Assembly: GCA_017619275.1 (NCBI GenBank)
Contig: JAFZSR010000028.1
Location: 1-41,569, forward strand
Direction of reading: 5' to 3'
Length of the DNA: 41,569 nucleotides
Origin: Prevotella sp.
GTDB lineage: Bacteria > Bacteroidota > Bacteroidia > Bacteroidales > Bacteroidaceae
In this document: positions 10,585 through 37,424 of the stretch, piece after piece
How the letters are laid out: the number at the start of each line of letters is the position of its first letter
How positions within the stretch are numbered: position 1 is the first letter of the stretch
The notes under the pieces: generated by a model
Told to the model about the DNA's origin: nothing
The model's input: only the letters and a program-made list of their open reading frames with translations
Database searches by the model: none
Program-made: the position numbers and the translations under genes

Positions 10585-10647
10585 GGAACATACTTAAAAA
10601 AATATGTGACATACAGAAAAGTGGCATTCACGTAGAGAAAACACGAA
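10585..10647 (+). promoter_or_regulatory. Three 21-bp direct repeats, candidate HTCS operator
   Basis: Units begin at 10585, 10606 and 10627. The cores, starting 3 bp into each unit, are ACATACTTAAAA, ACATACAGAAAA and ACGTAGAGAAAA. The same motif at the same 21-bp period stands before the HTCS gene (33299-33340). The array ends 36 bp before the -7 box of the FAS1/SusCD operon. This is the layout expected for an AraC-type activator binding direct repeats. Confidence 0.6.
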
Positions 10648-10683
10648 TGCACCAGCAAAAAAGCTTCGCGCGTAAAAAAGTTG

Positions 10684-10691
10684 TAACTTTG
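10684..10691 (+). promoter_or_regulatory. -7 box of the FAS1/SusCD operon
   Basis: TAACTTTG matches TAnnTTTG. It lies 33 bp before the first start codon at 10725. There is no -33 TTTG at the right spacing, which fits a promoter that depends on an activator. Confidence 0.65.
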
Positions 10692-10724
10692 CAAGCAAAT
10701 ATATTACAAACCAAATAAGCATCA

Positions 10725-13337
10725 ATGAAAACCGAAAAACGAACACAACGACACGGTCGGCAGCTGCTGCTGGCCGCTGTTGGCGTGCTGTTGACCGGTG
10801 GCAGCTGCCTGACGTCGTGCTCACAGTACGACTTGGATGAGCGAACCCCCGAAGGCTGGGGCTCGAGCATCTACAACTGGCTTGAAGAACAAGGCAACTA
10901 CACCAACACAGTGCGCTTGATTGACGACCTTGGCTACCGCGAGGTGCTGGCCAAGACGGGTTCGAAGACGCTCTTCGTGGCCGATGACGCGGCCTACGAG
11001 CGTTTCTTCAGTGCGCGCAAGTGGGGCGTGGGCAGTTATGCTCAGCTCTCCAACTCGCAGAAGCGCTTGCTGCTCTTCGGCAGCATGCTCGACAACTCGA
11101 TGCAGCTCTCGGCACTGCCCAGCGTGGAAGGTACCCCGCCCACCGAGGGCGAGAGCCTGAGGCGCTTCGCCTCGACCACCCCCTATGACTCGGTGACCAT
11201 CTTCCGCCCGGATCAGATGCCGCAGACAGCCTACTGGCAGCGATTCCGCGACGGCGGTCAGAGCATCGTGTGCATGACCGACAACACCACCGTGCCCCTG
11301 GTGCTCTTCATCGAGAAGATGCTCACCAACAAGCGTATCACCAACAGCGACTACGACTTCCTGTTCAACAACACCACGCAGCGGCAGCCTGGCGAGGCCA
11401 GCATCAACGGCGTGCAGGTGTTTGAGCCAAACGTGAAGTGCAGCAACGGTTTCATCCATTTGATGGCCGACGTGGTGACACCCCTGCCCAACATGGCCGA
11501 GCGCATCCGCACGAAGAGCAACGTGAGCCAATACAACACGCTGATGGAGCGCTTCTGCGCCCCCTACCCCGACCGCACCCCCGACCGCGACGGATCGGTG
11601 ACGATGCAGTATAACGACATGTATGGCACCAGGGTGGACACCGTCTACCAGAAGCGTTTCTTCTCGGAGAAGTCGCAAAACAACGAGGAGCTGTCGAGAG
11701 ACCCCTACGGCGGCAACCCGACGGCCCTGCTGAAGTACGACCCGGAGTGGAACGCCTTCGTATCGGGACTCATCGAGGGAACGGGCAACGTGTCGATGCA
11801 GCGCGACATGGGCGTGATGCTCGTGCCAAGCAACGAGGCCATGGACAACTACTGGAAGAACGGCGCTGGCCGCATCCTGAAAGACCAGTACGGCTCGTGG
11901 GAGAACGTGCCCGACGACGTGGTGGCCGAACTGCTGAACAACAACATGCTCAGCTCGTTCGTCAACAGCGTGCCCTCGAAGTTCCAGAGCATCCTCAACA
12001 AAGACAATGACCCCATGGGCGTGGAGGTGGCCGACATCGACTCGGTGTGGCTGGCCTGCAACGGAGCCGTGTACCTCACCAACAAGGTGTATTCGCCCAA
12101 CTCCTTCGTCAGCGTGCTCTTCCCCGCACTCACCAACGAGTCGATGAAAATCATCTACTGGGCCGTGAACAGGCTGAAGTACAACATCTACCTGAACTCG
12201 CTCAATGCACGCTACAGCTTCTTCATCCCCAACAACAAGGCCATGCTGCAATACATCGACCCCTGCAGCTATGGCAAGGCCGAGACGCAGCTTTTCCGCT
12301 TCCACTGGGACCCCACGAGGAGCGACGACCAGCGTGTGTGGGCCAGCATCTTCAATTATAACGTGGAGACCGGCGAGGTGGGCGACAGCATCGGACGCGC
12401 CACACAGGCACAGGTGGAGAACCGCCTGAAGGACATCCTGGAGACGCACGTCATCATTGGCGACGTGGAAGACGGCCATGAGTTCTACCGCACCAAGGGC
12501 GGCACGATGATTCGCGTGTCGAACGTGGGCGAGGGCATCGGCCACATGAAAGTGGCCGGCAGCTTGCAGGTGGACGAGCAGCGCCCCGTGGTGGTGAGCG
12601 ACATCTACGACCAGACCGCCGACGGTAACGGCAAGAGCTATATCCTGAGCGACGAGCCACTGATGACCACCCGCAAGTCGGTGGACGACGTGCTCTCGGC
12701 CACACCCGAATACAGCATGTTCTACGGACTCTTCGAGCGCAGCGGACTCTTGGAGACCCTGCACAACAAGAGCTACGCCTCGCCAAGGAGGAACATCAGC
12801 ACCTTCAACACCTACCACTACACCATCTACGTGCCCACCAACGAGAGCATACAGAAGCTGCACGACGACGGACTGCTGCCCACTTGGGAGCAGGTGGACA
12901 AATATGAGGACGAGGGCAACCTGACGGCCAAGACGCGTGACTCGCTGCAGATTGTGAACTTCGTGAAATACCACATCCAGGACAACGCCCTCTTCATCGG
13001 GGCACCCGTGGAGGTGATCGACCCCTCGCACCCCGAGCTCACCGTGGAGACTGCACTGATGAACCCCCTCACCGAGCGCTTCTATCTGCTCACCGCACGC
13101 TATACCACCGCTGCCGATGGCCGCGAGACCATCGAGGTGAACGACCAGCTGTGCCAGGACCACCCACAGCAGTACGAGCCCGCACATGTGCTCACCAGCA
13201 ACCCGGCGCTCTACAACCTGCAAGCGCGCGAGTATCTCTATCATGAGGCCGACGCCATGGAGGCCGTGAACATCGAGACCAGCTCGTCGGCAGTGATTCA
13301 TCTCATCGACAGGCCTTTGCGCTACGCTAATGAATAA
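10725..13337 (+). CDS. Multi-FAS1 (fasciclin) lipoprotein
   Basis: The 870 residues have a basic n-region, a hydrophobic core and the lipobox LTSC (about residue 32), so the product is a lipid-anchored envelope protein. Four fasciclin-like cores can be seen by their H1 strand: TLFVADDAAYERFF (about 82), VMLVPSNEAMDNYW (about 363), YSFFIPNNKAML (about 496) and YTIYVPTNESI (about 698). FAS1 domains mediate adhesion or ligand binding. In Bacteroidota such proteins are often next to SusC/SusD pairs. It opens the operon and is 31 bp from susC. I infer an accessory surface ligand-binding role; the ligand is unknown. Confidence 0.82.
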   Translation: MKTEKRTQRHGRQLLLAAVGVLLTGGSCLTSCSQYDLDERTPEGWGSSIYNWLEEQGNYTNTVRLIDDLGYREVLAKTGSKTLFVADDAAYERFFSARKWGVGSYAQLSNSQKRLLLFGSMLDNSMQLSALPSVEGTPPTEGESLRRFASTTPYDSVTIFRPDQMPQTAYWQRFRDGGQSIVCMTDNTTVPLVLFIEKMLTNKRITNSDYDFLFNNTTQRQPGEASINGVQVFEPNVKCSNGFIHLMADVVTPLPNMAERIRTKSNVSQYNTLMERFCAPYPDRTPDRDGSVTMQYNDMYGTRVDTVYQKRFFSEKSQNNEELSRDPYGGNPTALLKYDPEWNAFVSGLIEGTGNVSMQRDMGVMLVPSNEAMDNYWKNGAGRILKDQYGSWENVPDDVVAELLNNNMLSSFVNSVPSKFQSILNKDNDPMGVEVADIDSVWLACNGAVYLTNKVYSPNSFVSVLFPALTNESMKIIYWAVNRLKYNIYLNSLNARYSFFIPNNKAMLQYIDPCSYGKAETQLFRFHWDPTRSDDQRVWASIFNYNVETGEVGDSIGRATQAQVENRLKDILETHVIIGDVEDGHEFYRTKGGTMIRVSNVGEGIGHMKVAGSLQVDEQRPVVVSDIYDQTADGNGKSYILSDEPLMTTRKSVDDVLSATPEYSMFYGLFERSGLLETLHNKSYASPRRNISTFNTYHYTIYVPTNESIQKLHDDGLLPTWEQVDKYEDEGNLTAKTRDSLQIVNFVKYHIQDNALFIGAPVEVIDPSHPELTVETALMNPLTERFYLLTARYTTAADGRETIEVNDQLCQDHPQQYEPAHVLTSNPALYNLQAREYLYHEADAMEAVNIETSSSAVIHLIDRPLRYANE

Positions 13338-13368
13338 CGAATAAATAATAAAGGAAGGAAGATCGTAT

Positions 13369-16300
13369 ATGAGGAAATATATCCGTATCAGAAAGAAGAT
13401 AGGTTTATTATTTATTCTTTTTTCACTATTCATCAGCCGTGCAGCCGCCCAGCAGGCCGGCGACATCATCAGCGGTACCGTTACCGACGCGTTTGGCCCC
13501 GTGATGATGGCCAACGTGGTGGAACTCGACGCCGCCAACCGTATCGTGGCTTCGGCCGTGACCGATATGAGCGGTAACTTCTCGTTTAAGCTGAAGAACC
13601 CCAAGGACAAGCTGCGCGTCACCTACGTGGGCGCGAAGACCGTTACCCTACCCTTCAACAAAACTAAGTTCAACATCACCCTGCAAGATGCCACGCAAAT
13701 CCAGGAGGTGACCATCACCTCGAAGAAGCGTACGCAGGGCAACGGCTTGAGCATCCCTGTTGACGAAATCTCGACGGCACAGCAGAGCATCTCGATGTCG
13801 GAATTCGAGGGACTCTCGATGACAACCGTCGACGAAGCCCTGCAGGGCCGTATCGCCGGTCTCGACATCGTGGCCAACAGTGGTAACCTGGGTAGCGGCA
13901 CCAGCATGCGTCTGCGTGGTGTGTCGAGTATCAACGGTAGCAGCGAACCCCTCATCGTGGTCGACGGCAACATCTGGGAGACCAACACCAACGACTTCGA
14001 CTTCCAGTCGGCCAACGAAGAGCGTTTTGCCGAGCTGCTCAACGTAAACCCCGAGGATATCGAGAGCATCGCCGTGCTCAAGGATGCCGCCGCCACCGCC
14101 GTCTACGGCTCGCAGGGTAGTAACGGTGTGATTGAAATCAAGACCAAGCGCGGTGCACGCGGCCAAACGCGCGTGAACTACAGCTTCCGACTCACTGGCA
14201 CCTACCAGCCCAACGGCTACAAGCTGCTCAATGGCGACGAGTACACCATGCTGCTGAAGGAAGAATACTTCAACCCGCGCATGAGCGACGATGCCAGCGA
14301 CATCAACGAGATACAATACAAGACCAGCGGATTCCCCGAGTGGCGCATGTACGACGACAACACCGACTGGCTATCGTTGGTGAAGAAGACTGGTTGGCGC
14401 CAGAACCACTACCTGGCTCTGACGGGTGGTGGCGAGAAGGCTCACTTCCGCATCGGCGCCGGCTATGACCACGAAACCGGCTCCATCATCGAGCAGCGAC
14501 TCGACCGATTCACCTCGCGCGTCAACCTGGACTACTTCGTCAGCGACCGCATCAAAATCGAGACGAACATCGCGCTCACCTACACCAAGAACAAGAAGAA
14601 CGCCGGCGACCTGCTCTCCATTGCCTACGTGCGCATGCCTAACCTCTCCATCTATGAGGAGGACGCCAACGGCAACGACATCGTGGGCGAATACTACTCG
14701 ATGCTGCCCACGGTGAACACCAAGCTGCGCGACCAGCTGAGCTACAAGAACCCCGTGGCACTGGCACATCTGGCCAAGAGCTACGACACCAGCTACAACA
14801 TCACGCCGGAGTTCAAGCTGAACTATCGCCTGCTGGGCATCGACCAGGACCACCACCGACTGGACTACGAGGGCAAGGTGGTGTTCAATATCTTCAACCG
14901 CTACGACGACCAGTTCATGCCGCTCTCGCTGAGCACCAGCGGATGGAACGACCAAGGCAGTAACACCGCCACGGCCAACTCGTCGAAGAGCCTCGGTGTC
15001 ACCACCACTCATACGCTCACCTACACGCCGGCATTCAAGAACAAGGACCACTCGCTGTCGATGATGCTGCGCGGACAGCTCACCAGCGGCACCTCGTCGT
15101 CGCAGGGCACCACCACTTGGGGCCTGCCCAGCGGCACCATTGAGAGCACAGCCGCCGAGGGTATCATCAGCAGCATGTCGACAGGCAGCGGACGCTGGCG
15201 CAGCATCTACTTCACCTACTCGGCACACTACGCCTACAAGGGACGCTACATGGCCGACTTCACCGTGCGCCGCGACGGTAGCACCAAGTTCGGCGACGAC
15301 CAGCGTTGGGGTAACTTCCCCTCGCTGTCGCTGCGATGGAATGTCAGCCGCGAACCTTGGTTCAAAGAGGCCCTGCCCTTCGTCTCCATGCTCTCCATCC
15401 GTCCGGGATGGGGTATTGGTGGCCGCCAGCCCGGCTCGGAAGGACTCTTCTATAGCAAATATGGCGACGGCCCCGGCTATCTCAACGCCAAGTCGAACTA
15501 TCCCTCCAACATTCAGCTGAAGAACCTGAAGTGGGAGCAGAAGAAAACCTACAACGTGGGTACCGACTTCGGATTCTTCAACGAACTCATCACCGGTAAT
15601 GTCGACCTCTACTGGCAGTACACCAGCGACCTGCTCATGAACAGCTACGGCATCCCCACTTCGTCGGGATTCCCCAACCTGTCGGTGCAGAACGCAGGCG
15701 ACATGAAGAACGTGGGTTGGGAGTTCAACCTGAACGGTAACCAGATTATCAAGGCTGGCAAGTTCTCGGCCGACTTCAACATTACCTTCGCCAACAACAA
15801 GAACGAAATCACCGCCATGGACGAGACCTGCTTGGCACGCCTCAACCAGGAATACGACCGCAGCGGACACACCCCGTCGTACCTGACGCGCGTGGAGCTG
15901 AAGACCGCCCTCGGTAGCATCTACGGATTCCGCTACAAGGGTGTCTACCAATACAGCGACTACAGCGAGGTGGAGGTGCCCGGCGTGAGCGGACCCAATG
16001 CTCCCGTGGTGCGCGACGCCAACGGCCAAGTGGTGCTCGACGAGAACAACATGACGAAGCCCATGGTCTACTGCTACGACGGCACCCGCGACGAGAACCG
16101 CATCTTCCGCGGCGGCGACGCCATTTACGAGGACATCAACAGCGACGGACAAATCAACGAGCTCGACATCGTCTACCTCGGCTCCTCGCTGCCCAAGTTC
16201 ACCGGCGGCTTCGGCTTCAAGGTGCGCTATGGCCGTCTGCAGTGGAACAACCAGTTCAACTTCCGCTATGGCAATAAGATCATCAACCAGGCCCGCCGCG

Positions 16301-16680
16301 ACGTGGAGAAGATGATCGACAACAACAACCAGAGCCGCGCCGTGAACTGGCGATGGCGCGTGGAAGGCGACGTGACAGAGATGCCACGTGCCCTGCGCGA
16401 CGCCGGCTACAACGCCCTGCCCTCCGACCGCTTCGTCGAGGACGGCTCGTTCATCCGCCTCAACTACTCGCAGATTAGCTACAACTTCGACCCCAAGCTC
16501 ATCAAGAAGTGGGGACTCACTCAGCTCTCGCTGCATTTCTCGGCAAACAACCTCTTCGTGCTCACCAAATACTCGGGAGCCGACCCAGAAGTGGGCTACG
16601 GTTCGATGGGTATCGTGACCGACGGTGCCAAGACACCGCGAGCCAAGTCGTTTACCGGAGGCGTAACCATCAGCTTCTAA
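13369..16680 (+). CDS. SusC/RagA-family TonB-dependent outer membrane transporter (first pair)
   Basis: The protein has 1103 residues with a Sec signal ending at about AAAQ. A carboxypeptidase-regulatory-like domain (about 32-115, ISGTVTDAFGPV) comes first. The plug (about 140-255) has ALQGRIAGLDIV, MRLRGVSSINGSSEPLIVVDG and VLKDAAATAVYGSQGSNGVIEIKTKRG, all SusC hallmarks. The remainder is the barrel and ends in an aromatic residue (VTISF). It would import oligomers across the outer membrane using TonB energy, capped by the SusD lipoprotein encoded next. The substrate is unknown because no degradative enzyme is encoded nearby. Confidence 0.95.
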   Translation: MRKYIRIRKKIGLLFILFSLFISRAAAQQAGDIISGTVTDAFGPVMMANVVELDAANRIVASAVTDMSGNFSFKLKNPKDKLRVTYVGAKTVTLPFNKTKFNITLQDATQIQEVTITSKKRTQGNGLSIPVDEISTAQQSISMSEFEGLSMTTVDEALQGRIAGLDIVANSGNLGSGTSMRLRGVSSINGSSEPLIVVDGNIWETNTNDFDFQSANEERFAELLNVNPEDIESIAVLKDAAATAVYGSQGSNGVIEIKTKRGARGQTRVNYSFRLTGTYQPNGYKLLNGDEYTMLLKEEYFNPRMSDDASDINEIQYKTSGFPEWRMYDDNTDWLSLVKKTGWRQNHYLALTGGGEKAHFRIGAGYDHETGSIIEQRLDRFTSRVNLDYFVSDRIKIETNIALTYTKNKKNAGDLLSIAYVRMPNLSIYEEDANGNDIVGEYYSMLPTVNTKLRDQLSYKNPVALAHLAKSYDTSYNITPEFKLNYRLLGIDQDHHRLDYEGKVVFNIFNRYDDQFMPLSLSTSGWNDQGSNTATANSSKSLGVTTTHTLTYTPAFKNKDHSLSMMLRGQLTSGTSSSQGTTTWGLPSGTIESTAAEGIISSMSTGSGRWRSIYFTYSAHYAYKGRYMADFTVRRDGSTKFGDDQRWGNFPSLSLRWNVSREPWFKEALPFVSMLSIRPGWGIGGRQPGSEGLFYSKYGDGPGYLNAKSNYPSNIQLKNLKWEQKKTYNVGTDFGFFNELITGNVDLYWQYTSDLLMNSYGIPTSSGFPNLSVQNAGDMKNVGWEFNLNGNQIIKAGKFSADFNITFANNKNEITAMDETCLARLNQEYDRSGHTPSYLTRVELKTALGSIYGFRYKGVYQYSDYSEVEVPGVSGPNAPVVRDANGQVVLDENNMTKPMVYCYDGTRDENRIFRGGDAIYEDINSDGQINELDIVYLGSSLPKFTGGFGFKVRYGRLQWNNQFNFRYGNKIINQARRDVEKMIDNNNQSRAVNWRWRVEGDVTEMPRALRDAGYNALPSDRFVEDGSFIRLNYSQISYNFDPKLIKKWGLTQLSLHFSANNLFVLTKYSGADPEVGYGSMGIVTDGAKTPRAKSFTGGVTISF

Positions 16681-16689
16681 TGAATTGTC

Positions 16690-16707
16690 CGCTTTCAAAG
16701 AAAGAAT
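16690..16707 (+). repeat. Leader motif CGCTTTCAAAGAAAGAAT
   Basis: This 18-bp motif lies 9 bp before the first susD start. It recurs with one mismatch at 22177-22194, 15 bp before the second susC. It may be a translation leader or a duplicated gap segment. Confidence 0.5.
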
Positions 16708-16716
16708 AAGAAATCA

Positions 16717-18429
16717 ATGATTATGATGACCAAAAGACATAAATTCCATAATAAGGCGTTTGCAGGACTATCCCGCTTACTCCTCTACTCCTCTGCCCCA
16801 CTGCTCCTTTCCAGCTGCAATGACTTCCTCGACATCCTGCCCCTGAACGAGGTGGTGCTGGAAAACTACTGGACGGAAAAAGCCGACGTGAACAGCGTGC
16901 TTAACAGCTGCTACGAGACTTTGGAGCACAGCGATGCGCTGACACGAATGGGCATCTGGGGAGAGCTGCGCAGCGACAACCTGATGGCTGGCGACAACGT
17001 TCCCACCGAGGTGAGCGAAATTCTGAAAGAGAACCTACAGCCATCCAATCCCTATTGCAAATGGGACAAGATTTATGAGTGCATCAACCGCTGCAACACC
17101 GTTTGCCACTACGCCCCCAAGGTGCAGGCCATCGACCCCAACTACAGGGAAGAGGAGATGCGCGCCAACGTGGCCGAAGCTATTGCGCTGAGGTCGCTGA
17201 GCTACTTCTACCTCATCCGCACCTTCCGCGACGTGCCCTACTCTACCCGGCCCAGCATCGACGACACACAGTCGTATGTGCTCCCGGCAACACCCTTCGA
17301 TGCCGTGCTCGACTCGCTCATCACCAGCCTGGAGCAGGTGAAGGACGACGCCGTGCGCCGCTATTACACCGACGACAGCCCCAACGCCTGGCAGAACTCC
17401 AGCAAAATCACCCGATGGGCCATCTATGCACTGCTCGCCGACCTCTACCTCTGGAAGGGCGACTGGAACAACAGCATACGCTATTGCGACCTCGTCATCG
17501 ACCAGAAACGCAAGCAGTATGAGGAACTGCTGCAGCGCGAAGGCAGCCAGCCCAACATGGACCTCATCGACAGTATCCCCATGATTCTCGAAGCCCCGTT
17601 GGGAACCACCAACTGCGGCAACTCCTACACCGAAATCTTCGGAACGGGCAATAGCTTCGAGAGCATCTTCGAGCTCTATTTCAGCAAGAACCAAGAGCAG
17701 AAAAACACGTGGGTGGACTCCTACTATGGTAACAGAGACAGCCGAGGAAGGCTGAGCGCCAACTCGCTCATGCTGATGGACGTGGTGAAGAACACCAACT
17801 CGCTGTTCAAACGTAGCGATGGCCGCTTCTACGCCGCCACCAAGACTTCGGGCTCCTCGCTCACCATTGCCAAATATGTGCGCACATCGGTCAGCTTCAC
17901 CACGAAGAACGTCACCAGCGAAAGCGACCTGCACCTCACCGACGACATGCGCCAAAATGCCGACAAGGACGCCCACTGGATCATCTATCGCCTGAGCGAC
18001 ATGCTCCTCATCAAGGCCGAGGCTCTGATTGAGCGCGCTCAGGACGGTGACTTCGACGCCGCCTTCGACCTCATCAACGTGGTGAACAAACGCGCCAACA
18101 ACCTCACCGCAACTTTGAAGAAGGAGGACTACATCAGCTCGAAGAAGCAGATGGAAGATCTCCTCATGGAGGAGCGCCAGCGTGAGTTCATCTACGAGGG
18201 CAAGCGATGGTACGACCTGGTGAGACGCTCGCGCCGCGACGGCAACACCATCAGCCTCGTGGCCGCCGTGCAGAACAAGTTCGAGGAGAACAGCAATGCC
18301 ATCCGCATCAGGCTCTCCGACCCCAACATCATCTATTTCCCCTACGCCAAGAGCGAGCTGAAGGTGAACCCGCTGCTCACGCAGAACCCGGCATTCACCA
18401 ACGGCGAGGACTCGCAGTATTCACGTTGA
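16717..18429 (+). CDS. SusD/RagB-family nutrient-binding lipoprotein (first pair)
   Basis: The 570-residue lipoprotein has lipobox LSSC, followed by NDFLDILPLNEV, the usual mature start of SusD proteins. The helical TPR-like part includes ALRSLSYFYLIRTFRDVPYS (about 160-180) and ITRWAIYALLADLYLWKGDWNNSIRYCDLVI (about 228-258). The C-terminal part has MLLIKAEALIERA and MEERQREFIYEGKRWYDLVR, then the family end ...LLTQNPAFTNG. It would sit on the outer face of the first SusC as a lid that captures the substrate. Two ATGs (16717, 16723) are possible starts. The first is used. Confidence 0.95.
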   Translation: MIMMTKRHKFHNKAFAGLSRLLLYSSAPLLLSSCNDFLDILPLNEVVLENYWTEKADVNSVLNSCYETLEHSDALTRMGIWGELRSDNLMAGDNVPTEVSEILKENLQPSNPYCKWDKIYECINRCNTVCHYAPKVQAIDPNYREEEMRANVAEAIALRSLSYFYLIRTFRDVPYSTRPSIDDTQSYVLPATPFDAVLDSLITSLEQVKDDAVRRYYTDDSPNAWQNSSKITRWAIYALLADLYLWKGDWNNSIRYCDLVIDQKRKQYEELLQREGSQPNMDLIDSIPMILEAPLGTTNCGNSYTEIFGTGNSFESIFELYFSKNQEQKNTWVDSYYGNRDSRGRLSANSLMLMDVVKNTNSLFKRSDGRFYAATKTSGSSLTIAKYVRTSVSFTTKNVTSESDLHLTDDMRQNADKDAHWIIYRLSDMLLIKAEALIERAQDGDFDAAFDLINVVNKRANNLTATLKKEDYISSKKQMEDLLMEERQREFIYEGKRWYDLVRRSRRDGNTISLVAAVQNKFEENSNAIRIRLSDPNIIYFPYAKSELKVNPLLTQNPAFTNGEDSQYSR

Positions 18430-18451
18430 ACGATGAACGTTGAACATTGAA
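18424..18451. repeat. Heptamer array CGTTGAA, four units
   Basis: Units CGTTGAA, CGATGAA, CGTTGAA and CATTGAA span the susD stop codon and the gap before the next FAS1 gene. An in-frame ATG at 18440 inside this array is a spurious start. Confidence 0.75.
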
Positions 18452-18478
18452 CGACAAATAACGAAGATTGAATATATT

Positions 18479-20434
18479 ATGACGACAAAGATTTATAAAT
18501 ACATTTGCGCCCTCTGCGTTTGCTGCTGGTTCTTTGCCTGTGTCGACAACGACGACGTGCCCGAGAACATGTACACCGCGCAAAAGATGACGGCCGCCCA
18601 GTTCTTGGAGGCCAACCCCGAGCAGTTCAGCGACTTTACTGCACTGCTGAAGCGCACACCTTATTTCTCGTTGCTCACCACCTACGGCCGCTACACGCTC
18701 TTCGCAGCCACCAACGACGCCGTGGCCTCCTTTACCAACCACCGAGGCTACAAAACCATCGATGAGCTGCCGCAAGACCTCTGCGACACCATCGCGCGTA
18801 CGCATATCATTAAGGAGGGAGCCTTCTTCACCACCGACGTGGTGGAGGGAACGCTGCCCCAGCTGAACATGCTCGATGCTTTCATCGTATGGTCGAGCGA
18901 CTCCGACGTGGTGAACGACAACAAAATCATCTACTACGTCAACAAGAACGCTCGTATGCTGGAGTACAACGACTCCGTGACTAATGGCGTGGTGCACGTG
19001 GTGAACAACATCATCACCGCGAGCAACGATTTCCTGCCCGACAAGATGGAGGAAGACCCTTCGCTCACCATCTTCTGCGAAGCCCTGCGTCTGACGGGTA
19101 TGGCCGACTCGCTCACCCGCTACATGGACGAGACCTACTCCTGCGGCGACGACTCAGTGTATAATGGTACGCGTGAGCGCTGCACCAACGGCAGCGATCT
19201 CTACATGACCTGCAAATGGGTGGGAACGCGCTATTTCAAGTACACCGCCCTTGTGGAGCCCGACAGCGTCTATCGTGCACACGGCATCAACAACATCGAC
19301 GACCTGAAGGCCTACGCCAAGCAGGTGTACGACCAGACCTATCCTGAAGATGCCGGCCTCTACGACGACGACCCCAAGCACCGCAAGAACCCGCTTAACC
19401 GCTTCGTCAGCTATCATCTGCTCGACCGCGTGGCGCAGTACAACCAGTTTGTCATCTCGGGAGCCATCCGCGAGAAATGCTGGAAGTCGTCCATCGCCGA
19501 CCCGGAGGAGTTCTACGAGACCATGTGCCCCGGCACGCTGGTGCGCTTTGCCAGCCCCGCCGCAGCCTCCGTCAGCGGACTTTATATCAACCGGCGCGGA
19601 TTCCAGGGACGCCTCTACAACAACGATCCACAGTGCCGAGGCGTAAAGGTGCTCTCACCGTCGGAGTCGGGAAGCATCGACCAGAACGCGCTCAACGGCG
19701 TCTACCACTACATTGACGACATTCTTGTCTTCTCGCCTTTCGTGCGCGACGTCATCTTCAACTGCCGCATGCGCTTCGACCCCGCCACCCTGAGCCCCGA
19801 CTTCATGAACTGCGACGGTCGTGGCCGCCAAGGTTCCTCCGAACTGCGCGGCTTTAAGCGTGGCTACGTCACCAATTTCGACTTCACCAAGGAGACCTTC
19901 CTCTCCGTCACGCCCGACCAGGACTTCTGGTGGTCGTTCCTCGGCCACGTGCTCTGCGTCAGCGGACGCTTCGACATCTCCTTCAAACTCCCCACCGTGC
20001 CCAACAAGGGAACCTACGAGATTCGCATGGGCTACACTCCGGGCGAGGAGCGCGGTGTCATCCAGGTGTATCTCGACAACAATCCTTGCGGTATCCCCAT
20101 CGACCTTCGCGTGGGTGGTGGAGCACCTGAGATTGGTGCCATTGCCGACACCGACGACGAGGAGCAGAACCGCCTCAACGACAAGGCCATGCACAACCGT
20201 GGCTACATGAAGGCCATGGACTGCTACTTCCCCGGAGGCGGCGAGACGGCCATGCGCGAACTGGGCAGTCCCCTGCGACGCATCCTGGCCACCGAATACT
20301 TGGAGCCGGGCAAGGAGTATTTCCTCCGCGTACGCCAGGTGCTCGACGATCCCATGAAATACTGGAACTTCAACTACTTGGAGTTGTGCCCCAAGAGCGT
20401 ATATGCCAGCCCACAGGGCGAGGACACGCACTAA
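18479..20434 (+). CDS. FAS1 lipoprotein with C-terminal jelly-roll-like region
   Basis: I place the start at 18479. This gives 651 residues and a proper lipoprotein signal (MTTKIYKYICALCVCCWFFAC; lipobox FFAC). The longer frame from 18440 would put 13 repeat-encoded residues ahead of it. FAS1-like cores are YTLFAATNDAVASFTNHRG (about 75) and a second starting LTIFCEALRLTGMADSL (about 195), with YHYIDDILVF closing it (about 415). The C-terminal half (about 430-645) is beta-rich and ends YWNFNYLELCPKSVY, a pattern seen in binding modules fused to FAS1 in SusCD loci. It probably captures ligand at the cell surface. It overlaps no neighbour and is in the SusCD operon. Confidence 0.75.
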   Translation: MTTKIYKYICALCVCCWFFACVDNDDVPENMYTAQKMTAAQFLEANPEQFSDFTALLKRTPYFSLLTTYGRYTLFAATNDAVASFTNHRGYKTIDELPQDLCDTIARTHIIKEGAFFTTDVVEGTLPQLNMLDAFIVWSSDSDVVNDNKIIYYVNKNARMLEYNDSVTNGVVHVVNNIITASNDFLPDKMEEDPSLTIFCEALRLTGMADSLTRYMDETYSCGDDSVYNGTRERCTNGSDLYMTCKWVGTRYFKYTALVEPDSVYRAHGINNIDDLKAYAKQVYDQTYPEDAGLYDDDPKHRKNPLNRFVSYHLLDRVAQYNQFVISGAIREKCWKSSIADPEEFYETMCPGTLVRFASPAAASVSGLYINRRGFQGRLYNNDPQCRGVKVLSPSESGSIDQNALNGVYHYIDDILVFSPFVRDVIFNCRMRFDPATLSPDFMNCDGRGRQGSSELRGFKRGYVTNFDFTKETFLSVTPDQDFWWSFLGHVLCVSGRFDISFKLPTVPNKGTYEIRMGYTPGEERGVIQVYLDNNPCGIPIDLRVGGGAPEIGAIADTDDEEQNRLNDKAMHNRGYMKAMDCYFPGGGETAMRELGSPLRRILATEYLEPGKEYFLRVRQVLDDPMKYWNFNYLELCPKSVYASPQGEDTH

Positions 20435-20444
20435 AGGCGGCGCA

Positions 20445-20461
20445 CGGTCTATTTAAGACCG
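20445..20461 (+). other. Small intergenic hairpin
   Basis: CGGTCT-ATTTA-AGACCG forms a 6-bp stem between the second and third FAS1 genes. It has no T-run, so it is not a typical terminator. It might affect processing or stability of the operon mRNA. Confidence 0.35.
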
Positions 20462-20486
20462 GCACTTTAAGAACGACATAATAACA

Positions 20487-22157: not shown

Positions 22158-22176
22158 TGAGAATTCGAACTAAGTT

Positions 22177-22194
22177 CGCTTTCAAAGTAAGAAT
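22177..22194 (+). repeat. Second copy of the leader motif
   Basis: CGCTTTCAAAGTAAGAAT matches 17 of 18 bases of 16690-16707. It lies 15 bp before the second susC start. Confidence 0.5.
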
Positions 22195-22209
22195 TATAGA
22201 TTAGGAATT

Positions 22210-25200
22210 ATGATTACCAAGAGCTTAAGATATTTTCTCTTTGCGTTTTCTTTCGGCTGCGCCTCAGTAGCTGCAACCGCTCAAGACAACACACAGACGG
22301 TATCAGGTACAGTCGTCGATGCAGCCACAGGCCAGCCCCTGGCGGGTGTCATCGTGTCGGCCTACGGCAACCAGCGGCAGACCACGATGACCGACGATCA
22401 GGGCCGCTACGAACTGAACGTGCCCGAACAGACTCGCTCAATGCTGATGCGTGTGGATGGCTACAACCTGCAACAGAGTGCCATCGCCAACGGCAAGGCC
22501 GACGCCCGCCTCTACCGCGATGCCTTCAGCGAAAACTACAGCCGGCAAGTCACGGCAGGACTGAGCAACGAGGCCACTAACTTCAGCAACACCTCGCAGC
22601 TCAGCATCGACCCGCTGGTGAGCCAGCAGCTGGGTGCCGACATGCGTACCGTCAGCCACGGCGCTATACCCGGTATGGGCAACCTGATGCTCATTCAGGG
22701 CATCAATTCGCTCCATACCAACGCCCAGCCCCTCGTCATCGTCGACGATGTCATCATGGACATGCAGTATGGCCGTGAGATGCTTCACAGTGGCTACTTC
22801 AACAACCTGCTGGCCAACCTGAACGTGAACGACATCGAGAGCGTGCAGGTGATGAAGAACGGCACCGCCCTCTATGGTGCCAAGGCTGCCAATGGCGTGC
22901 TCATCATCAAGACCAAGCGCAGCAAGTCGATGGCCACGAAGATTGACGTCACCATCAACGGACGCTACGAGCTGACCCCGCGCCTGCCCCAGATGCTGGG
23001 CGCCGAGGACTACCGTCTCTATGCCACCGAACTGCTCACCGGCAACACCAATCCCACGCTGATGAGCAAGATGAAGTTCCTCAACAGCGACCCCACCTAC
23101 TTCTACTACAACCAGTATCACAACCAGACCGACTGGAGCAGCCTCGTCAGCGACAACGCATTCTCGCAGAACTACGGCATCAACGTGCAAGGTGGCGACG
23201 ACGCAGCCTCCTACAACCTCTCCGTGGGTTATGTGCTAGGCAACAGCACGCTGAAGGAGAACGACTACTCGCGCTTCAACATGCGCCTCAACAGCGACAT
23301 CAACATCAGCCGCCGCCTCAGCGTGCGCTTTGATGCTTCTTACAGCGATGTCGACCGCTCGCTGCGCGACGATGGCGCCCCCGAGGATCCCCTCGGCACC
23401 GTCATCACATCGCCGGCCTTCATCGCAAAGGCCAAGTCGCCCTTCCTCTCGCCCTACGCCTTCGACAATTATGGCAAAATCAGCCAGTACCTCTCCGATG
23501 CCGACGACTATTTGGAGGGCAAGTTCCAAGGACGTGGCCGCCTGGCCAACCCCGTGAGCATCCTCGAATATGGCGAAGGACGCAACCGCAACTCCTTCGG
23601 CAACCGACTCATCACGTTTGCCATCACGCCGAAGTACGAGTTCAACCGCCACCTCTCCTTGCAGGAACACTTTACTTTGGGACTGGTGAACACCAACGAG
23701 AACTACTACCTGCCCATCAATGGCGTGCCCAGCTTCTTTGTGGAAGGCCTCGACGAGGGCACCGAACTGGACAACGTGGTGCAGAGCCTGACCTCGCGCC
23801 AGACAGCCATCCAAAGCGACACCCGCCTGAACTGGACGTTCAACGTTCAACGTTCATCGTTCAACGTCAAAGCTGGCGTGCGCTATCTCAGCAGCGAGTA
23901 CAAGCTCACTTCACAGCGTGGCTACAACATGAATGGCTCGGGCAACGACAAGACGCCTAACATGTCGGGCTCGCTCAACTTCAAGACCACCGGTGGTGCC
24001 GACGATAACACCCGTGAGCTGGCATGGTATGGCTTGGCCAACTACAGCTATGCCGACCGCTTCTATGTCGACGCCGGACTGTCGGCACAAGCCTCGTCAC
24101 GCTTTGGCGACGATGCCTCGGGCCTGAAGCTCTTCGGCAAGGTGTGGGGTCTCTTCCCCAGCCTGCAGGGCGCTTGGGTGCTCAGCAACGAGCGCTGGCT
24201 GGCCGGCACGCCCGGAATCAACTACCTGCGACTCAACGTGGGCTTCGACATCACGGGCAATGACGCCATCGACTACACCGCTTCGCGCTCCTACTTCATT
24301 GCCAAGCGCATGCTGGGCGAGAGCGTCAGCGGCAAAATCATCGGCAACATCGGTAACACCGACTTGCAGTGGGAGTCCACACGCCGACTCACAGCAGGAC
24401 TCGCCGGCAACTTCATCGACAACCGCCTGTCGCTCCGCTTCGACGTGTTCAAGAGCTGGACCTCGAACCTGCTCTCCATCCGCCAGCTGGCCTACACCAG
24501 CGGCTTGCAGCAGAACTGGAGCAACGACGGCAAGCTGGAGAACATGGGCTTCACCGTCAGTCTCAATGCCAAGCTGCTGGCCCTGAAAGACTTCAGCTGG
24601 GAGGCTGGAGCATCGGCAGGACACTACAAGAACAAGGTGACGGCGCTGCCCAACAACAACCAGGCCATCGAAACCTCTGTCTACGGTGCCACCATCCTCA
24701 CGCAGGTGGGACAACCCGTGGGACTCTTCTACGGCCATAAGGCGCTGGGCGTCTATGCCACCACAGCCGAGGCAAAGGCCGACGGCCATTACACGCTGCT
24801 GCAGAACGGCGACCACCAATACTTCGAGGCTGGCGACGTACGCTTCGACGACCTCGACAACAACAAGGTCATCGACGATGCCGACCGCGTGGTCATTGGC
24901 GACCCCAACCCCGACATCTACGGCAACATCTTCACCACGCTCACCTACAAGAACCTGTCGCTGAACGCCGTGATGACCTATTCCTTGGGCAACGACATCT
25001 ACAACTATGAGCGCTCACTGCTCGAGGGAGGCAGCCTGTTCCTCAACCAGACCACAGCCATGGGCAACCGCTGGAACACCGAGGGGCAGCACACCGACTT
25101 CCCCCGCGCCTCGTATACCGACCCCATGGGCAACTCGCGCTTCAGCAACCGCTGGATTGAGGACGGCTCCTACCTGCGCCTGAGCAATGTCACGCTGGCA

Positions 25201-25401
25201 TGGAACATTCCCATCCAGAGCACCTACCTGCAGGGCATCACCCTCTGGGGCGCAGCATCGAACCTTTTCACAGTGTCACGCTATCTCGGCAGCGACCCCG
25301 ACTGCTCCATCGCCACCGGCGGCATCCTCACGCAGGGCATCGACATCGGTCTGCTCGGAGCCGGACGCAGCTTCTCACTGGGCGTGAACGTCAAGCTCTA
25401 A
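22210..25401 (+). CDS. SusC/RagA-family TonB-dependent outer membrane transporter (second pair)
   Basis: The protein has 1063 residues with a Sec signal ending at about ATAQ. A CarboxypepD_reg-like domain follows (VSGTVVDAATGQPLAGVIVSAYG, about 30-110). The plug has MLIQGINSLHTNAQPLVIVDD (about 158-180) and VQVMKNGTALYGAKAANGVLIIKTKR (about 213-238). The usual LRG and ALQGxxAG signatures are weaker here than in the first SusC. The rest is barrel. At residues about 543-553, WTFNVQRSSFNVKAG is encoded by a heptamer array and looks like a 7-residue in-frame insertion in a barrel strand or loop. The two SusC proteins are clearly different in sequence, so this is not a recent duplication. Confidence 0.93.
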   Translation: MITKSLRYFLFAFSFGCASVAATAQDNTQTVSGTVVDAATGQPLAGVIVSAYGNQRQTTMTDDQGRYELNVPEQTRSMLMRVDGYNLQQSAIANGKADARLYRDAFSENYSRQVTAGLSNEATNFSNTSQLSIDPLVSQQLGADMRTVSHGAIPGMGNLMLIQGINSLHTNAQPLVIVDDVIMDMQYGREMLHSGYFNNLLANLNVNDIESVQVMKNGTALYGAKAANGVLIIKTKRSKSMATKIDVTINGRYELTPRLPQMLGAEDYRLYATELLTGNTNPTLMSKMKFLNSDPTYFYYNQYHNQTDWSSLVSDNAFSQNYGINVQGGDDAASYNLSVGYVLGNSTLKENDYSRFNMRLNSDINISRRLSVRFDASYSDVDRSLRDDGAPEDPLGTVITSPAFIAKAKSPFLSPYAFDNYGKISQYLSDADDYLEGKFQGRGRLANPVSILEYGEGRNRNSFGNRLITFAITPKYEFNRHLSLQEHFTLGLVNTNENYYLPINGVPSFFVEGLDEGTELDNVVQSLTSRQTAIQSDTRLNWTFNVQRSSFNVKAGVRYLSSEYKLTSQRGYNMNGSGNDKTPNMSGSLNFKTTGGADDNTRELAWYGLANYSYADRFYVDAGLSAQASSRFGDDASGLKLFGKVWGLFPSLQGAWVLSNERWLAGTPGINYLRLNVGFDITGNDAIDYTASRSYFIAKRMLGESVSGKIIGNIGNTDLQWESTRRLTAGLAGNFIDNRLSLRFDVFKSWTSNLLSIRQLAYTSGLQQNWSNDGKLENMGFTVSLNAKLLALKDFSWEAGASAGHYKNKVTALPNNNQAIETSVYGATILTQVGQPVGLFYGHKALGVYATTAEAKADGHYTLLQNGDHQYFEAGDVRFDDLDNNKVIDDADRVVIGDPNPDIYGNIFTTLTYKNLSLNAVMTYSLGNDIYNYERSLLEGGSLFLNQTTAMGNRWNTEGQHTDFPRASYTDPMGNSRFSNRWIEDGSYLRLSNVTLAWNIPIQSTYLQGITLWGAASNLFTVSRYLGSDPDCSIATGGILTQGIDIGLLGAGRSFSLGVNVKL
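23839..23866. repeat. Heptamer array TTCAACG, four units, inside the second susC
   Basis: Units TTCAACG, TTCAACG, TTCATCG and TTCAACG encode FNVQRSSFNV. Removing three units would restore FNVKAG in frame. Confidence 0.85.
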
Positions 25402-25407
25402 CTTGGT

Positions 25408-25540
25408 CGATTAGTCGTCTGGTAGTTTAGTCGTTTAGGAAACTAACAAACGGCGGAGGCAACATCCCCAAACGACCAACCCCCAAAACGACCAAATGAC
25501 CAAACGACAAAACGACTAATCCCCTAAACAACTAAAAAAC
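25408..25540. repeat. Intergenic inverted array of GTCGTTTAG-type units
   Basis: The left side reads GTCGATTAGTCG...GTTTAGTCGTTTAGG. The right side carries the complement as AAACGACC, AAATGACC, AAACGAC and AACGACTAATCCCCTAAAC. The arms are built of about 8-bp units, as at 985-1137. It fills the 151-bp gap between the second susC and susD, where a hairpin could uncouple their expression. Confidence 0.65.
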
Positions 25541-25552
25541 ATACAGAATGTT

Positions 25553-27301
25553 ATGAATAAGACCATAAGAACAAGAAAGAGCGCTAAACGATATGTTTGG
25601 ATGATCAGTTTATCGTTTGTCCTTTATCATTTATCCTTTAGCGTAGCGTGTTCTGACATGCTCGACACCCAGAGTGAGCTGGTGGAGTTTCAGGAGGACA
25701 ACACGCTGAACCATCCCACCGACAGCGTCTACAGCGTCATGGGTATCATCAACCGCATGCAGCTCATTGCCGACCGCACCGTGCTCCTCGGCGAGGTGCG
25801 TGGCGACTTGGTGCAGCCCACCGATGCCGCATCGGCCGACCTGAAGCGACTGGCCGCCTTCAACTTGACTGAGGCCAACAAGTACAACCAGGTGAGCGAC
25901 TACTACGCCGTCATCAACAACTGCAACTACTTCCTGGCCCACGTCGACACCGCCCTGCAGCGTCGCGGCCGCAACCTCTTCATGAACGAGTATGCCGCTG
26001 TGAAGACCTTCCGCGCCTGGACCTATTTGGAGCTGGTGAAGAACTACGGGCAGGTGCCCCTGGTGCTCGACCCCGTGATGACCGAGCGCGAAGCCGCCGA
26101 GCACCTCAACGGTAAGCGGGCCACCATCCAGGAGGTGTGCGACTATTTCATCGCCGACCTCACGCCCTATGCCTACATCACGCCGCCCTCATACGGCAAC
26201 GTGGGCGACTTCCAGTCATCCTCCTTCTTCATCCCAACCCGCGTACTCCTGGGCGACCTCTGCCTGTGGGCGGGCAAATACAAGGAGGCTGCACGCTGGT
26301 ATAATGACTTCCTGAACGACCCGCAGCAACCAAGACCCTTGAACGAGCAGCGACGCATCAGATGGAACAGCGTCACCGACTTCCAGAGTCCAGTCAACGG
26401 CTACAGTAGCGATAACAACGCCAGGGAGGAGACACTCGCCTCCATTCCCATGGAGAGCCGCGTCTTCGACGGTAATGTCAGCGACCTGCAGAACGTGTTC
26501 AACTCCACACGAGAGAACAACTACTTCTACCAGCTCACCCCCTCCGCCGGCATGCGTCGCATTTCGGCCGAACAGGTGTATTGCATGGAGTATAAGACGG
26601 CCACCACAACCGACACCGTCTATGTGCCCCGCACAGGCTTCAGCAACGACAACTACATTGGCGACCTGCGCTTCTCGGCCAACTACACCCTGCGCTCCGA
26701 GGGCGGTCAGGACCCCTATTCCGAGTTCTCCACGCTGCGCCAGACCATCAACAAGCTTTCACGTGCCAATACGGTGTCCACCTATCGGCTCACCATGGTC
26801 TACCTGCGCTATGCCGAGGCCCTCTGCCGCGCCGGTTTGCCACAGTCGGCCATGTCCGTGCTGAAGTACGGTCTCTGCCCCGACAACAACGTGGAGCGCA
26901 TCGACAGCCTGGAGCGCGTCGAGGCTGGCAGTCTGATCACTTTTGATGTCAACACCTTCACCGAAGAGCGAAGCATTGGCGTGCATTCCGTTGGTTCTGG
27001 CGATGCCGACTGCAACGCGCAGTACGCCCTGCCCATGCCGCCCACGTCGCTGCCCACTCGTCAGGACACCATCAACTATCAGGTGCCGCTCGTCGAAGAC
27101 CTCATCATCAACGAGATGGCGCTTGAGGGTGCTTTCGAGGGCTACCGCTTCCACGACCTGATGCGCGTGGCACTGCGCCGAGGCGACCCATCCTACCTGG
27201 CCGACCCCATCAGCCGTCGCAACGGAGCAGCCGACGCACAGCTGCACCAGCTGCTCATGAACCAAGACAACTGGTTCCTGCCGCTTCCCACCGTGCAGTA
27301 A
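25553..27301 (+). CDS. SusD/RagB-family nutrient-binding lipoprotein (second pair)
   Basis: This 582-residue lipoprotein has lipobox SVAC and mature start SDMLDTQSELVEF. SusD features include EYAAVKTFRAWTYLELVKNYGQVPLVLDPV (about 142-172), RVLLGDLCLWAGKYKEAARWYNDFL (about 225-250) and the C-terminal LIINEMALEGAFEGYRFHDLMRVALRRGDPSYLA. It pairs with the SusC encoded just upstream. The signal core LSFVLYHLSFS (about residues 19-30) is encoded by a heptamer array at 25609-25643, the same array as in the FAS1 gene at 20546. Confidence 0.93.
   Translation: MNKTIRTRKSAKRYVWMISLSFVLYHLSFSVACSDMLDTQSELVEFQEDNTLNHPTDSVYSVMGIINRMQLIADRTVLLGEVRGDLVQPTDAASADLKRLAAFNLTEANKYNQVSDYYAVINNCNYFLAHVDTALQRRGRNLFMNEYAAVKTFRAWTYLELVKNYGQVPLVLDPVMTEREAAEHLNGKRATIQEVCDYFIADLTPYAYITPPSYGNVGDFQSSSFFIPTRVLLGDLCLWAGKYKEAARWYNDFLNDPQQPRPLNEQRRIRWNSVTDFQSPVNGYSSDNNAREETLASIPMESRVFDGNVSDLQNVFNSTRENNYFYQLTPSAGMRRISAEQVYCMEYKTATTTDTVYVPRTGFSNDNYIGDLRFSANYTLRSEGGQDPYSEFSTLRQTINKLSRANTVSTYRLTMVYLRYAEALCRAGLPQSAMSVLKYGLCPDNNVERIDSLERVEAGSLITFDVNTFTEERSIGVHSVGSGDADCNAQYALPMPPTSLPTRQDTINYQVPLVEDLIINEMALEGAFEGYRFHDLMRVALRRGDPSYLADPISRRNGAADAQLHQLLMNQDNWFLPLPTVQ
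25609..25643. repeat. Heptamer array TTTATCA, five units, in a SusD signal peptide
   Basis: Units TTTATCG, TTTGTCC, TTTATCA, TTTATCC and TTTAGCG encode most of the hydrophobic core and the approach to the lipobox. Confidence 0.85.
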
Positions 27302-27367
27302 CGAATAAACCAGAAACCATCTAACGGTATTTATACTATTTATTTATCCACTTAAACTATTAACATT

Positions 27368-30763: not shown

Positions 30764-30776
30764 TTAGCTTATTCGT

Positions 30777-32564: not shown

Positions 32565-32587
32565 TTTCACTGGCCTATCGCTTCCTT

Positions 32588-32654
32588 AAATTTTGGAGTA
32601 CGAGATTTTTCAAAAAATCGTTGACTTTTTGAAAAATCTCGTACTCCAAAATTT
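32588..32654. terminator. Perfect 29-bp inverted repeat after the Omp28-like gene
   Basis: The arms 32588-32616 and 32626-32654 are perfect complements (AAATTTTGGAGTACGAGATT... ) around ATCGTTGAC. It starts 24 bp after the stop codon. There is no strong T-run, so besides ending transcription it could be a dispersed element. Its core resembles 10151-10202. Confidence 0.6.
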
Positions 32655-32678
32655 TCTGATTCAATTCAAACCAAAATT

Positions 32679-32888
32679 GTCGTTAAGACCAATTTGGGAA
32701 AAACGACGCGCAGCCACTCCCCTCCCTTCAAGGGGAGGGGTTAGGGGTGGGGTCTCTAAATCCCTGCGAATGAAGAATATACAGACCCCACCCCTGCCCC
32801 TCCCCGTAAGGGCAGGGTTCAGGAGGGGAGTGGCTGCGCCTTGTTGATTTAAAGACAGTTTTGCAAAGAACTTTTCGGTCTTAACGAC
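32679..32888. mobile_element. Mosaic GC-rich element, two modules in opposite orientation
   Basis: Module one (about 32708-32760) begins GCGCAGCCACTCCCC. Module two (about 32772-32840) is its inverted relative and ends GGGGAGTGGCTGCGCC, followed by TTGTTGATTTAAAGA. The whole is framed by a 12-bp inverted repeat (GTCGTTAAGACC 32679-32690 / 32877-32888). The outer flank and linker reappear at 41283-41431. There is no coding content. A BIME- or MITE-like nature is inferred. Confidence 0.6.
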
Positions 32889-33014
32889 CGTTTAGGGTTC
32901 AAGCATAAATTTGACGAACCCTACAGCATTTTCCTCTCCATTATACGCAATGTTTCACATAATTATAGCATTTATTACATTCGACAATGCTATTACAAAT
33001 AAAGAAGTAAGAGA

Positions 33015-33056
33015 AACATACGGTGTAATCGGTATAAAAAATAATGATTACCTTTG
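33015..33056 (+). promoter_or_regulatory. Promoter of a small putative transcript, with one AACATACGG site
   Basis: TACCTTTG (33049-33056) matches TAnnTTTG. AACATACGG (33015-33023) lies 25 bp upstream, the same core as before the HTCS and 1243-residue genes. Confidence 0.5.
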
Positions 33057-33060
33057 CAAC

Positions 33061-33279
33061 GTGAAAATATGAAGACAGCGCAACCGAAGCTGGAGCCTGC
33101 CAAGCGAAGCAAGGCCACCCAAAAGAAATGAAGGGGCTGTCGACAAGGAATAGCAAGTAGTGATTTTCTTCATATAACTGCATTATTCATGGTTATTAGT
33201 TAGTAGTTAGTTATCGTTAGTTATGGTAAAACTAATCGTCGCGGTCGGCCTGTATGAGAATATCGGCGACCGCTTTTTT
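33061..33279 (+). ncRNA. Putative small transcript upstream of the HTCS gene
   Basis: A -7 box at 33049-33056 and a terminator at 33241-33279 define an RNA of about 220 nt in a gene-free gap. Within it, 33069-33131 could encode a 20-residue basic peptide (MKTAQPKLEPAKRSKATQKK) starting 8 nt from the expected 5' end. Whether the RNA or the peptide matters is unknown. The lead is based only on signal placement. Confidence 0.4.
33241..33279 (+). terminator. Rho-independent terminator
   Basis: GCGGTCG (33241-33247) pairs with CGACCGC (33267-33273), extended by CC/GG past a bulge, then six T. No annotated gene ends just upstream, which points to the small transcript. Confidence 0.7.
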
Positions 33280-33298
33280 GTTCCATTTACGAAACATT

Positions 33299-33340
33299 GG
33301 AACATACGGAAAAACGAATGATACATAAAGAAAACACAAA
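33299..33340 (+). promoter_or_regulatory. Two 21-bp direct repeats before the HTCS gene
   Basis: The cores ACATACGGAAAA (from 33302) and ACATAAAGAAAA (from 33323) are 21 bp apart. They match the three-unit array at 10585-10647. The array ends 15 bp before the -7 box, so it could serve autoregulation. Confidence 0.6.
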
Positions 33341-33363: not shown

Positions 33364-33406
33364 CACCGTGATTAATGACTAACAACACAACGTTTTACCA
33401 TAACCA

Positions 33407-37354: not shown

Positions 37355-37373
37355 GGCTTGGCGCAAAAACGAA

Positions 37374-37424
37374 AACATACGGAACAAACAAGAAACCCCA
37401 TTTCTGCGAAGGTATCTACCTTTG
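37374..37424 (+). promoter_or_regulatory. Promoter of the 1243-residue gene, with AACATACGGAA site
   Basis: TACCTTTG (37417-37424) matches TAnnTTTG. AACATACGGAA (37374-37384) is identical to the HTCS promoter copy at 33301-33311. The second 21-bp unit is not recognisable here. Confidence 0.55.

Follow-up and report, generated by a model that had tools for sequence, protein, structure and literature searches.

Hybrid two-component system (HTCS) proteins control glycan use in Bacteroidota, and to our knowledge the limiting of their output has been little studied. In the case of AraC, the direct half-sites of araI1-I2 lie 21 bp apart, the proximal one overlapping the -35 region. Four papers describe related systems and promoters: predicted operators that are direct repeats averaging 21 bp for 16 of the 36 HTCSs of B. 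thetaiotaomicron (Ravcheev et al. 2013, PMC3878776), a promoter of the TAnnTTTG/TTTG type (PMC7366714), the OmrA/OmrB-OmpR system of Enterobacterales, in which a two-component regulator activates small RNAs (sRNAs) that repress its own mRNA (PMC12692685), and the FopS sRNAs of B. thetaiotaomicron, which end in a terminator and pair near start codons within the control of polysaccharide utilization loci (PMC11697453). We analyzed a 41,569-nucleotide stretch of Prevotella sp. (assembly GCA_017619275.1, contig JAFZSR010000028.1, positions 1 to 41,569), a single contig of a 3.59-Mb genome in 127 contigs, which is called the window below. In this window, direct-repeat operator units with a 21-bp period precede both a FAS1/SusCD uptake operon and the gene of an HTCS. 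We consider it probable, at roughly 0.7, that the HTCS activates the operon, a neighbouring gene, itself (in 24 of 52 orthologues) and an sRNA that represses HTCS translation.

The two promoters and the genes that they precede contain the following features (unit positions are relative to the -7 box).
10588..10599, plus strand: operator unit at -96 of the FAS1 promoter, ACATACTTAAAA; the -96 signal is present in the set of 80 promoters
10609..10620, plus strand: operator unit at -75 of the FAS1 promoter, ACATACAGAAAA; the weakest of the four registers in relatives
10630..10641, plus strand: operator unit at -54 of the FAS1 promoter, ACGTAGAGAAAA; the strongest register in relatives
10651..10662, plus strand: degenerate fourth unit at -33 of the FAS1 promoter, ACCAGCAAAAAA; the -33 unit is conserved in relatives
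10684..10691, plus strand: -7 box of the FAS1/SusCD operon, TAACTTTG
10725..27301, plus strand: FAS1/SusCD operon, encoding a FAS1 protein, SusC, SusD, two FAS1 proteins, SusC and SusD, as judged by open reading frames, Pfam and synteny in 7 relatives; presumably co-transcribed
33302..33313, plus strand: operator unit at -54 of the HTCS promoter, ACATACGGAAAA
33323..33334, plus strand: operator unit at -33 of the HTCS promoter, ACATAAAGAAAA
33356..33363, plus strand: -7 box of the HTCS gene, TATCTTTG
33407..37354, plus strand: HTCS with Reg_prop propellers, HisKA, HATPase_c, a receiver and an AraC-type HTH_18 domain

The initial annotation had reported three units before FAS1/SusCD and two before the HTCS gene with an exact 21-bp period, and these were found in the sequence; the cores actually begin 3 nt inside each position that it gave. 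The 21-bp offset of the -7 boxes was likewise seen, the nearest of its units lying 54 nt (FAS1) versus 33 nt (HTCS) upstream. It had missed the degenerate fourth FAS1 unit (10651) and the pairs at 32995/33016 and 37363/37384. When the genome was searched with ACRTANNNAAAA-N9-ACRTANNNAAAA, there were three occurrences, two overlapping at FAS1 and one at the HTCS, with none on the reverse strand, none for the reversed pattern in the whole genome, and no further ones in the genome when a gap of 0–30 was allowed; this chance test is post hoc, as the pattern was drawn from these same sites. To lessen this circularity, an operator matrix was trained on the FAS1 promoters of 78 other genomes, with 100 shuffled windows as a control. 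The results showed that the FAS1 site ranked first in the window (28.8) and the HTCS site second (26.2), both above all shuffles (maximum 20.6, 95th percentile 18.5).

Relatives were sought in 398 genomes of the genus. The search provided 95 FAS1 orthologues of at least 48% identity and 53 HTCS upstream regions from orthologues of at least 54% identity, our own included in both cases and both cut-offs being of our choosing. Fifteen of the FAS1 promoters were dropped (no strict box, more than one box, or too short an upstream sequence), and the remaining 80, each with one strict -7 box (TAnnTTTG), were aligned on the box only. Units recurred at -96, -75, -54 and -33 and were absent at -117, and thus the array consists of four units ending where a -33 element would be. 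A unit matrix was also made from the -54 unit of 40 FAS1 promoters, and the remaining 40 were scored with it; registers 54, 96, 33 and 75 ranked 1, 2, 3 and 9 of 143, and register 117 ranked 112. We relied on this split-half test because autocorrelation of column information in the 80 promoters did not single out 21, which came seventh behind 9, 10, 8, 12, 42 and 11. The motif is therefore kept in register upstream of orthologous FAS1 operons. By its spacing, exactly 21 bp in the window with a conserved register, the repeat resembles operators of the HTCS type, and by position the proximal unit in the FAS1 promoters, as in those of the sRNA and of gene 37478 described below, would act like an AraC-like class II half-site replacing the -33 element. 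There was no TTTG consensus at -23 to -20 in the FAS1 or sRNA promoters.

The candidate sRNA is encoded between the operon and the HTCS gene, with these features.
32995..33006, plus strand: operator unit at -54 of the sRNA promoter, ACAAATAAAGAA
33016..33027, plus strand: operator unit at -33 of the sRNA promoter, ACATACGGTGTA
33049..33056, plus strand: -7 box of the sRNA, TACCTTTG
about 33062..33283, plus strand: small RNA, its likely 5' end placed from the -7 box; covariance-model (R2) match at 33214–33283, 82.2 bits
33217..33235, plus strand: sRNA hairpin TTAGTTATGGTAAAACTAA, which contains the complement of the HTCS start region
33240..33279, plus strand: intrinsic terminator of the sRNA with a GNRA-type loop; 8 of 14 pairs with double changes
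33392..33404, plus strand: predicted target of the sRNA, GTTTTACCATAAC, within the leader of the HTCS and separated by two bases from the ATG at 33407

In the sRNA promoters of 31 genomes, the best pair fell precisely at -54/-33 in 30 and was shifted by a single base in the remaining one, an agreement that at -33 is partly built in, as the -7 box of these promoters was picked partly by AC[AG] near -33; when 27 sRNA promoters were picked by a single box alone, -54 was again the top register. In the 33 aligned sequences (own included), both-side changes occurred in 8 of the 14 terminator pairs, and in two genomes (G321 and G237) the first hairpin uses another stem (GAGTT/AACTC) with largely the same loop. 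R2, built from 33 sequences, found the RNA at E<=1e-4, our threshold for a strong match, in 54 of the 398 genomes of the genus; 33 of these matches were found by construction and 21 were not. A further 11 genomes of the genus had weak matches only (E 1e-4 to 0.01), and G237 carries a second RNA copy on the contig of its FAS1 locus.

The stretch GTTATGGTAAAAC in the sRNA hairpin is the exact complement of the 13 nt ending two bases before the HTCS start codon, and the duplex of the RNA with its own HTCS leader was predicted at -21.8 kcal/mol, reaching over the start codon. In the 36 RNA genomes (of 54) for which duplex energies were calculated, these averaged -14.6 kcal/mol for HTCS leaders versus -6.8 kcal/mol for the FAS1 leaders of the same genomes; in 30 of the 36, the pairing surpassed 95 or more of 100 shuffles. 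When all 457 ATG starts of the window were compared as candidates, that of the HTCS came second, the first being the RNA's own antisense strand. A search for TTTACCATAAC followed by ATG in 16 RNA-bearing genomes gave 16 matches (11 at the HTCS start, two at the RNA's own complement, three elsewhere) versus seven for the reversed-pattern control, and the corresponding numbers in 20 genomes without a strong RNA match were five and 10. An HTCS paralogue in G031, which lacks the complement, reached -7.6 versus -21.7 for the orthologue. The middle of the RNA (33190–33216) repeats TTAGT-type stretches in many relatives, and our own HTCS leader contains ACTAAC, as judged by eye; a second region of RNA–leader pairing is possible.

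Downstream of the HTCS gene, a further pair stands before what may be another member of the regulon.
37363..37374, plus strand: operator unit at -54 before gene 37478, GCAAAAACGAAA
37384..37395, plus strand: operator unit at -33 before gene 37478, ACAAACAAGAAA; same register by eye in four of five relatives
37417..37424, plus strand: -7 box of gene 37478, TACCTTTG
37478..41209, plus strand: gene 37478, encoding a 1243-residue protein whose match to CBM_4_9 is weak, at 23.0 bits (the Pfam cut-off being 25.9); probable regulon member
The pair was located at -54/-33 in the window and in the four relatives; the fifth had no strict box.

The unit positions, their register and conservation, the structure and covariation of the RNA, the complementarity and the co-occurrence are all read directly from sequence. 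On these grounds we propose that the HTCS at 33407 recognizes the 21-bp units as half-sites through its AraC-type DNA-binding domain. Dimers of phosphorylated HTCS would line up along a single face of the DNA, the unit closest to the -7 box (33 nt away) standing in for the -33 element, and the HTCS on its half-sites would recruit RNA polymerase. The FAS1/SusCD operon would have two such pairs in tandem (four units), and the HTCS gene, gene 37478 and the sRNA one pair each. A ligand sensed by the HTCS would thereby switch on the uptake operon, the neighbouring gene and the HTCS itself. The HTCS would also switch on the sRNA, whose hairpin would pair with the 13 nt upstream of the HTCS start codon and block translation, the outcome being a delayed negative feedback on HTCS synthesis. 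Binding, activation, transcription of the RNA and the repressive direction of its effect are the steps that we infer. There is, in our estimate, a somewhat better than even chance that the RNA represents a new family of this Prevotella-like genus, made from an HTCS-dependent promoter and using its hairpin to base-pair in trans with the start region of the mRNA of that HTCS; this would make it the first RNA known to be dedicated to feedback on an HTCS, and together with the four-site array it would give a sharp, self-limiting response.

The initial annotation had taken the repeat for an HTCS operator controlling both the HTCS and the uptake operon. Sequence comparison supports this for the uptake operon, the register being kept before FAS1 orthologues, and for self-control in about half of the orthologues only. 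HTCS promoters were counted on 52, as one of the 53 upstream regions had no box in the range used; a pair scoring above 8 (a cut-off of our choosing) and located 50–60 nt from the box was found in 24. A -33-like TTTG was present in 26 of the 52, and its mutual exclusion with the operator pair is a tendency only (Fisher p=0.0505). Because the pair is found in 24 of 52 promoters and TTTG tends to exclude it, self-regulation seems to have been gained or lost among species.

As to which protein recognizes the units, the protein at 33407 carries Reg_prop, HisKA, HATPase_c, Response_reg and HTH_18, all above Pfam cut-offs and in a single polypeptide, as in the HTCS family, which unites a periplasmic propeller sensor with a kinase, a receiver and an AraC-type domain. 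In nine orthologues compared, its AraC domain was 84–98% identical versus 61–77% for the whole protein. For the G031 paralogue, identity is 48% overall and 80% within the DNA-binding domain, and it too has such a site at -54/-33. The conservation of the domain and the site of the paralogue fit recognition of the units by that domain; the latter also means that related HTCSs may share sites. The Bacteroides-like architecture and the conserved DNA-binding domain speak for the link to this HTCS drawn in the initial annotation, and similar sites at other loci speak against its being exclusive.

Several observations weigh against the proposed circuit. Similar sites precede some other loci in our own and related genomes. 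With a sequence-only model of two units plus the -7 box, made for genome scans (R1), the site of our HTCS (E=0.005) was outscored by the promoter of an esterase-like gene of the same genome (E=7.9e-4), and since no HTCS was found in the 46 kb read of the contig with that gene, the consensus is not exclusive to this HTCS. In each of 12 genomes, R1 gave 83–112 matches with E<=1; many of these were incomplete matches that took in the -7 box, and for this reason the scan cannot show uniqueness. No above-cut-off pair was located 50–60 nt from the box in 28 of the 52 HTCS promoters, eight of those with TTTG also had the pair, and the unit score averaged over 46 HTCS promoters with a single box had its peak at 55 yet stayed negative. 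The pair at 37363/37384 scored 16.3 in the window with the matrix from other genomes' FAS1 promoters, which is within the range of shuffled windows; the pair at 32995/33016 before the sRNA scored 21.0, and two minus-strand places without such an array scored 21.2 and 17.1. The case for these two pairs therefore rests on their conservation. The median operator score of FAS1 promoters was 2.5 in genomes with an HTCS orthologue (54) versus -19.1 in those without (27; p=0.0012), but the control registers 86, 90, 56 and 88 differed as much or more, so that the test is not specific for the register and this weakening was rejected as evidence. Finally, the pairing of the RNA was no better than shuffles in six of 36 genomes (G321, G237, G181, G153, G174 and G139).

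The esterase-like promoter (own contig C72, 59910–59973) is operator-like, with units at -54/-33 of its -7 box, and lies near a glycoside-hydrolase-like gene; both gene names are our reading of the protein starts.

Part of this evidence suits an explanation in which the units are operators of another AraC-type regulator, or of several related HTCSs with a shared recognition sequence, with no one-to-one link to the HTCS at 33407. Such an explanation would account for the sites before other loci and for the one at the paralogue, and 27 genomes without an HTCS orthologue keep partial arrays at their FAS1 promoters. It agrees poorly with the distribution of the RNA. All 54 RNA genomes carry a FAS1 orthologue and 53 an HTCS orthologue (the exception is G172, where a contig ends in a fragment of an HTCS), and conversely the RNA was found at E<=1e-4 in 53 of 56 HTCS genomes, the HTCS orthologues of G416, G336 and G220 entering this count only. 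In 33 genomes, the core of the RNA lies within 600 nt upstream of the HTCS on the same strand, and in the window four promoters of this locus share sites in one register. We regard another regulator, or several that share the sites, as unlikely.

The position of the RNA in these 33 genomes raises the possibility that it is the 5' leader or an attenuator of the HTCS transcript, made by read-through from 33049, or that it increases HTCS translation, rather than acting as a repressor in trans; the complementary stretches could pair in cis too. The RNA, however, has its own intrinsic terminator with covariation, the HTCS gene in the window has its own -7 box downstream of the RNA, and the duplex extends to the HTCS start codon. 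In G288, the RNA follows SusD and the HTCS is in the middle of another contig, and the computed pairing is kept (-15.2), indicating action in trans since the genes are on different contigs; in G172, the complement is kept with the HTCS about 1.8 kb away, as judged by eye. A leader or an activating role thus appears slightly less likely still. That the repeats are spacing noise of AT-rich promoters and the two sites alike by chance is very improbable. In favor of this reading, the pattern was spotted by eye, promoters of this type often contain A-rich units, and the autocorrelation peaks at 8–12 and 42 before 21; the alignment of 80 promoters on the box only, the shuffled windows and the split-half test all argue against it.

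All seven relatives read, which belong to the same genus, keep the seven genes of the operon in synteny, and nine named loci with a relative of the FAS1 protein (37–92% identical) come from assemblies of Prevotella, Prevotellaceae and, once, Bacteroidaceae; rumen or omasum is named for two of the nine. Genes for cleaved-adhesin (choice-of-anchor J) and Omp28-like proteins (27368–32564) stand between SusD and the RNA/HTCS pair, and since the corresponding stretches of seven other relatives and of G083, whose FAS1 protein is 92% identical, contain no match to them, they have the appearance of an insertion. Three more FAS1-SusC-SusD loci of the genome (contigs C97, C28 and C114) are paralogous to the operon of the window; no HTCS was detectable in the stretches read, and there was no fitting four-unit array, two having a box without fitting units and one no strict box.

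Outside the genus, R2 gave six weak matches (36–38 bits) in five of 294 other genomes of the order; these have no homologue of a window protein within 1.5 kb, look like ordinary terminators and were rejected. A three-mismatch match to the RNA core on our own contig C83 was dropped because it lies inside long open reading frames, and a conserved small open reading frame in the RNA was also rejected, as the 20-codon frame of our own RNA was not seen by eye in the nearest relative, G083. An Rfam scan of the window yielded a tRNA as its sole match at gathering score. The FopS model (RF04319; cut-off 56) was listed for the RNA of one relative, G319, where it scored 17.3 bits, and scores for Bacteroides-1 RNA (RF01694; cut-off 43) were 17.5 bits for our own RNA and 28.1 for G319. 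The apical UAUGNGAAUA of the terminator (33251–33262) has this sub-threshold resemblance to Bacteroides-1 RNA, the agreement being mainly in the terminator loop; it may be a common motif of terminators or of protein binding. Two long inverted repeats (32588–32655 and 32702–32833) that lie upstream of the RNA promoter have sub-threshold Rfam matches of the microRNA type and may be mobile-element remnants or terminators.

If the circuit operates as proposed, a whole regulatory circuit would be located at one locus, with an operator of exact promoter geometry and four versus two half-sites depending on the target, with self-activation in some species but not in others, and with an RNA that acts as a brake on the sensor. 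All of its parts are small and amenable to reporter tests.

Compared with AraC araI1-I2, the sigma type and the sequence differ, and the operon here has four units where AraC has two. The predicted Bacteroides HTCS operators (PMC3878776) are similarly direct repeats of about 21 bp, with HTCS genes beside SusC/SusD; they are presented as two sites, whereas the FAS1 promoter has four in a fixed -33 register to the -7 box. The organism is another, and the likeness is one of architecture. OmrA and OmrB (PMC12692685) are multi-target RNAs acting with a separate kinase/regulator pair; the RNA described here has one predicted target so far and, unlike them, lies just upstream of that target in 33 genomes. 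FopS (PMC11697453) is multicopy and binds SusC-type mRNAs via a single-stranded 5' region, whereas our RNA would pair through a hairpin. Among the open-licence PubMed Central papers searched, none was seen to report a feedback RNA acting on an HTCS, the present RNA in Prevotella or a four-unit array. Thus, the 21-bp direct repeat as such has already been predicted for Bacteroides HTCSs, and what appears to be new at this locus is the four-unit array and the candidate feedback RNA.

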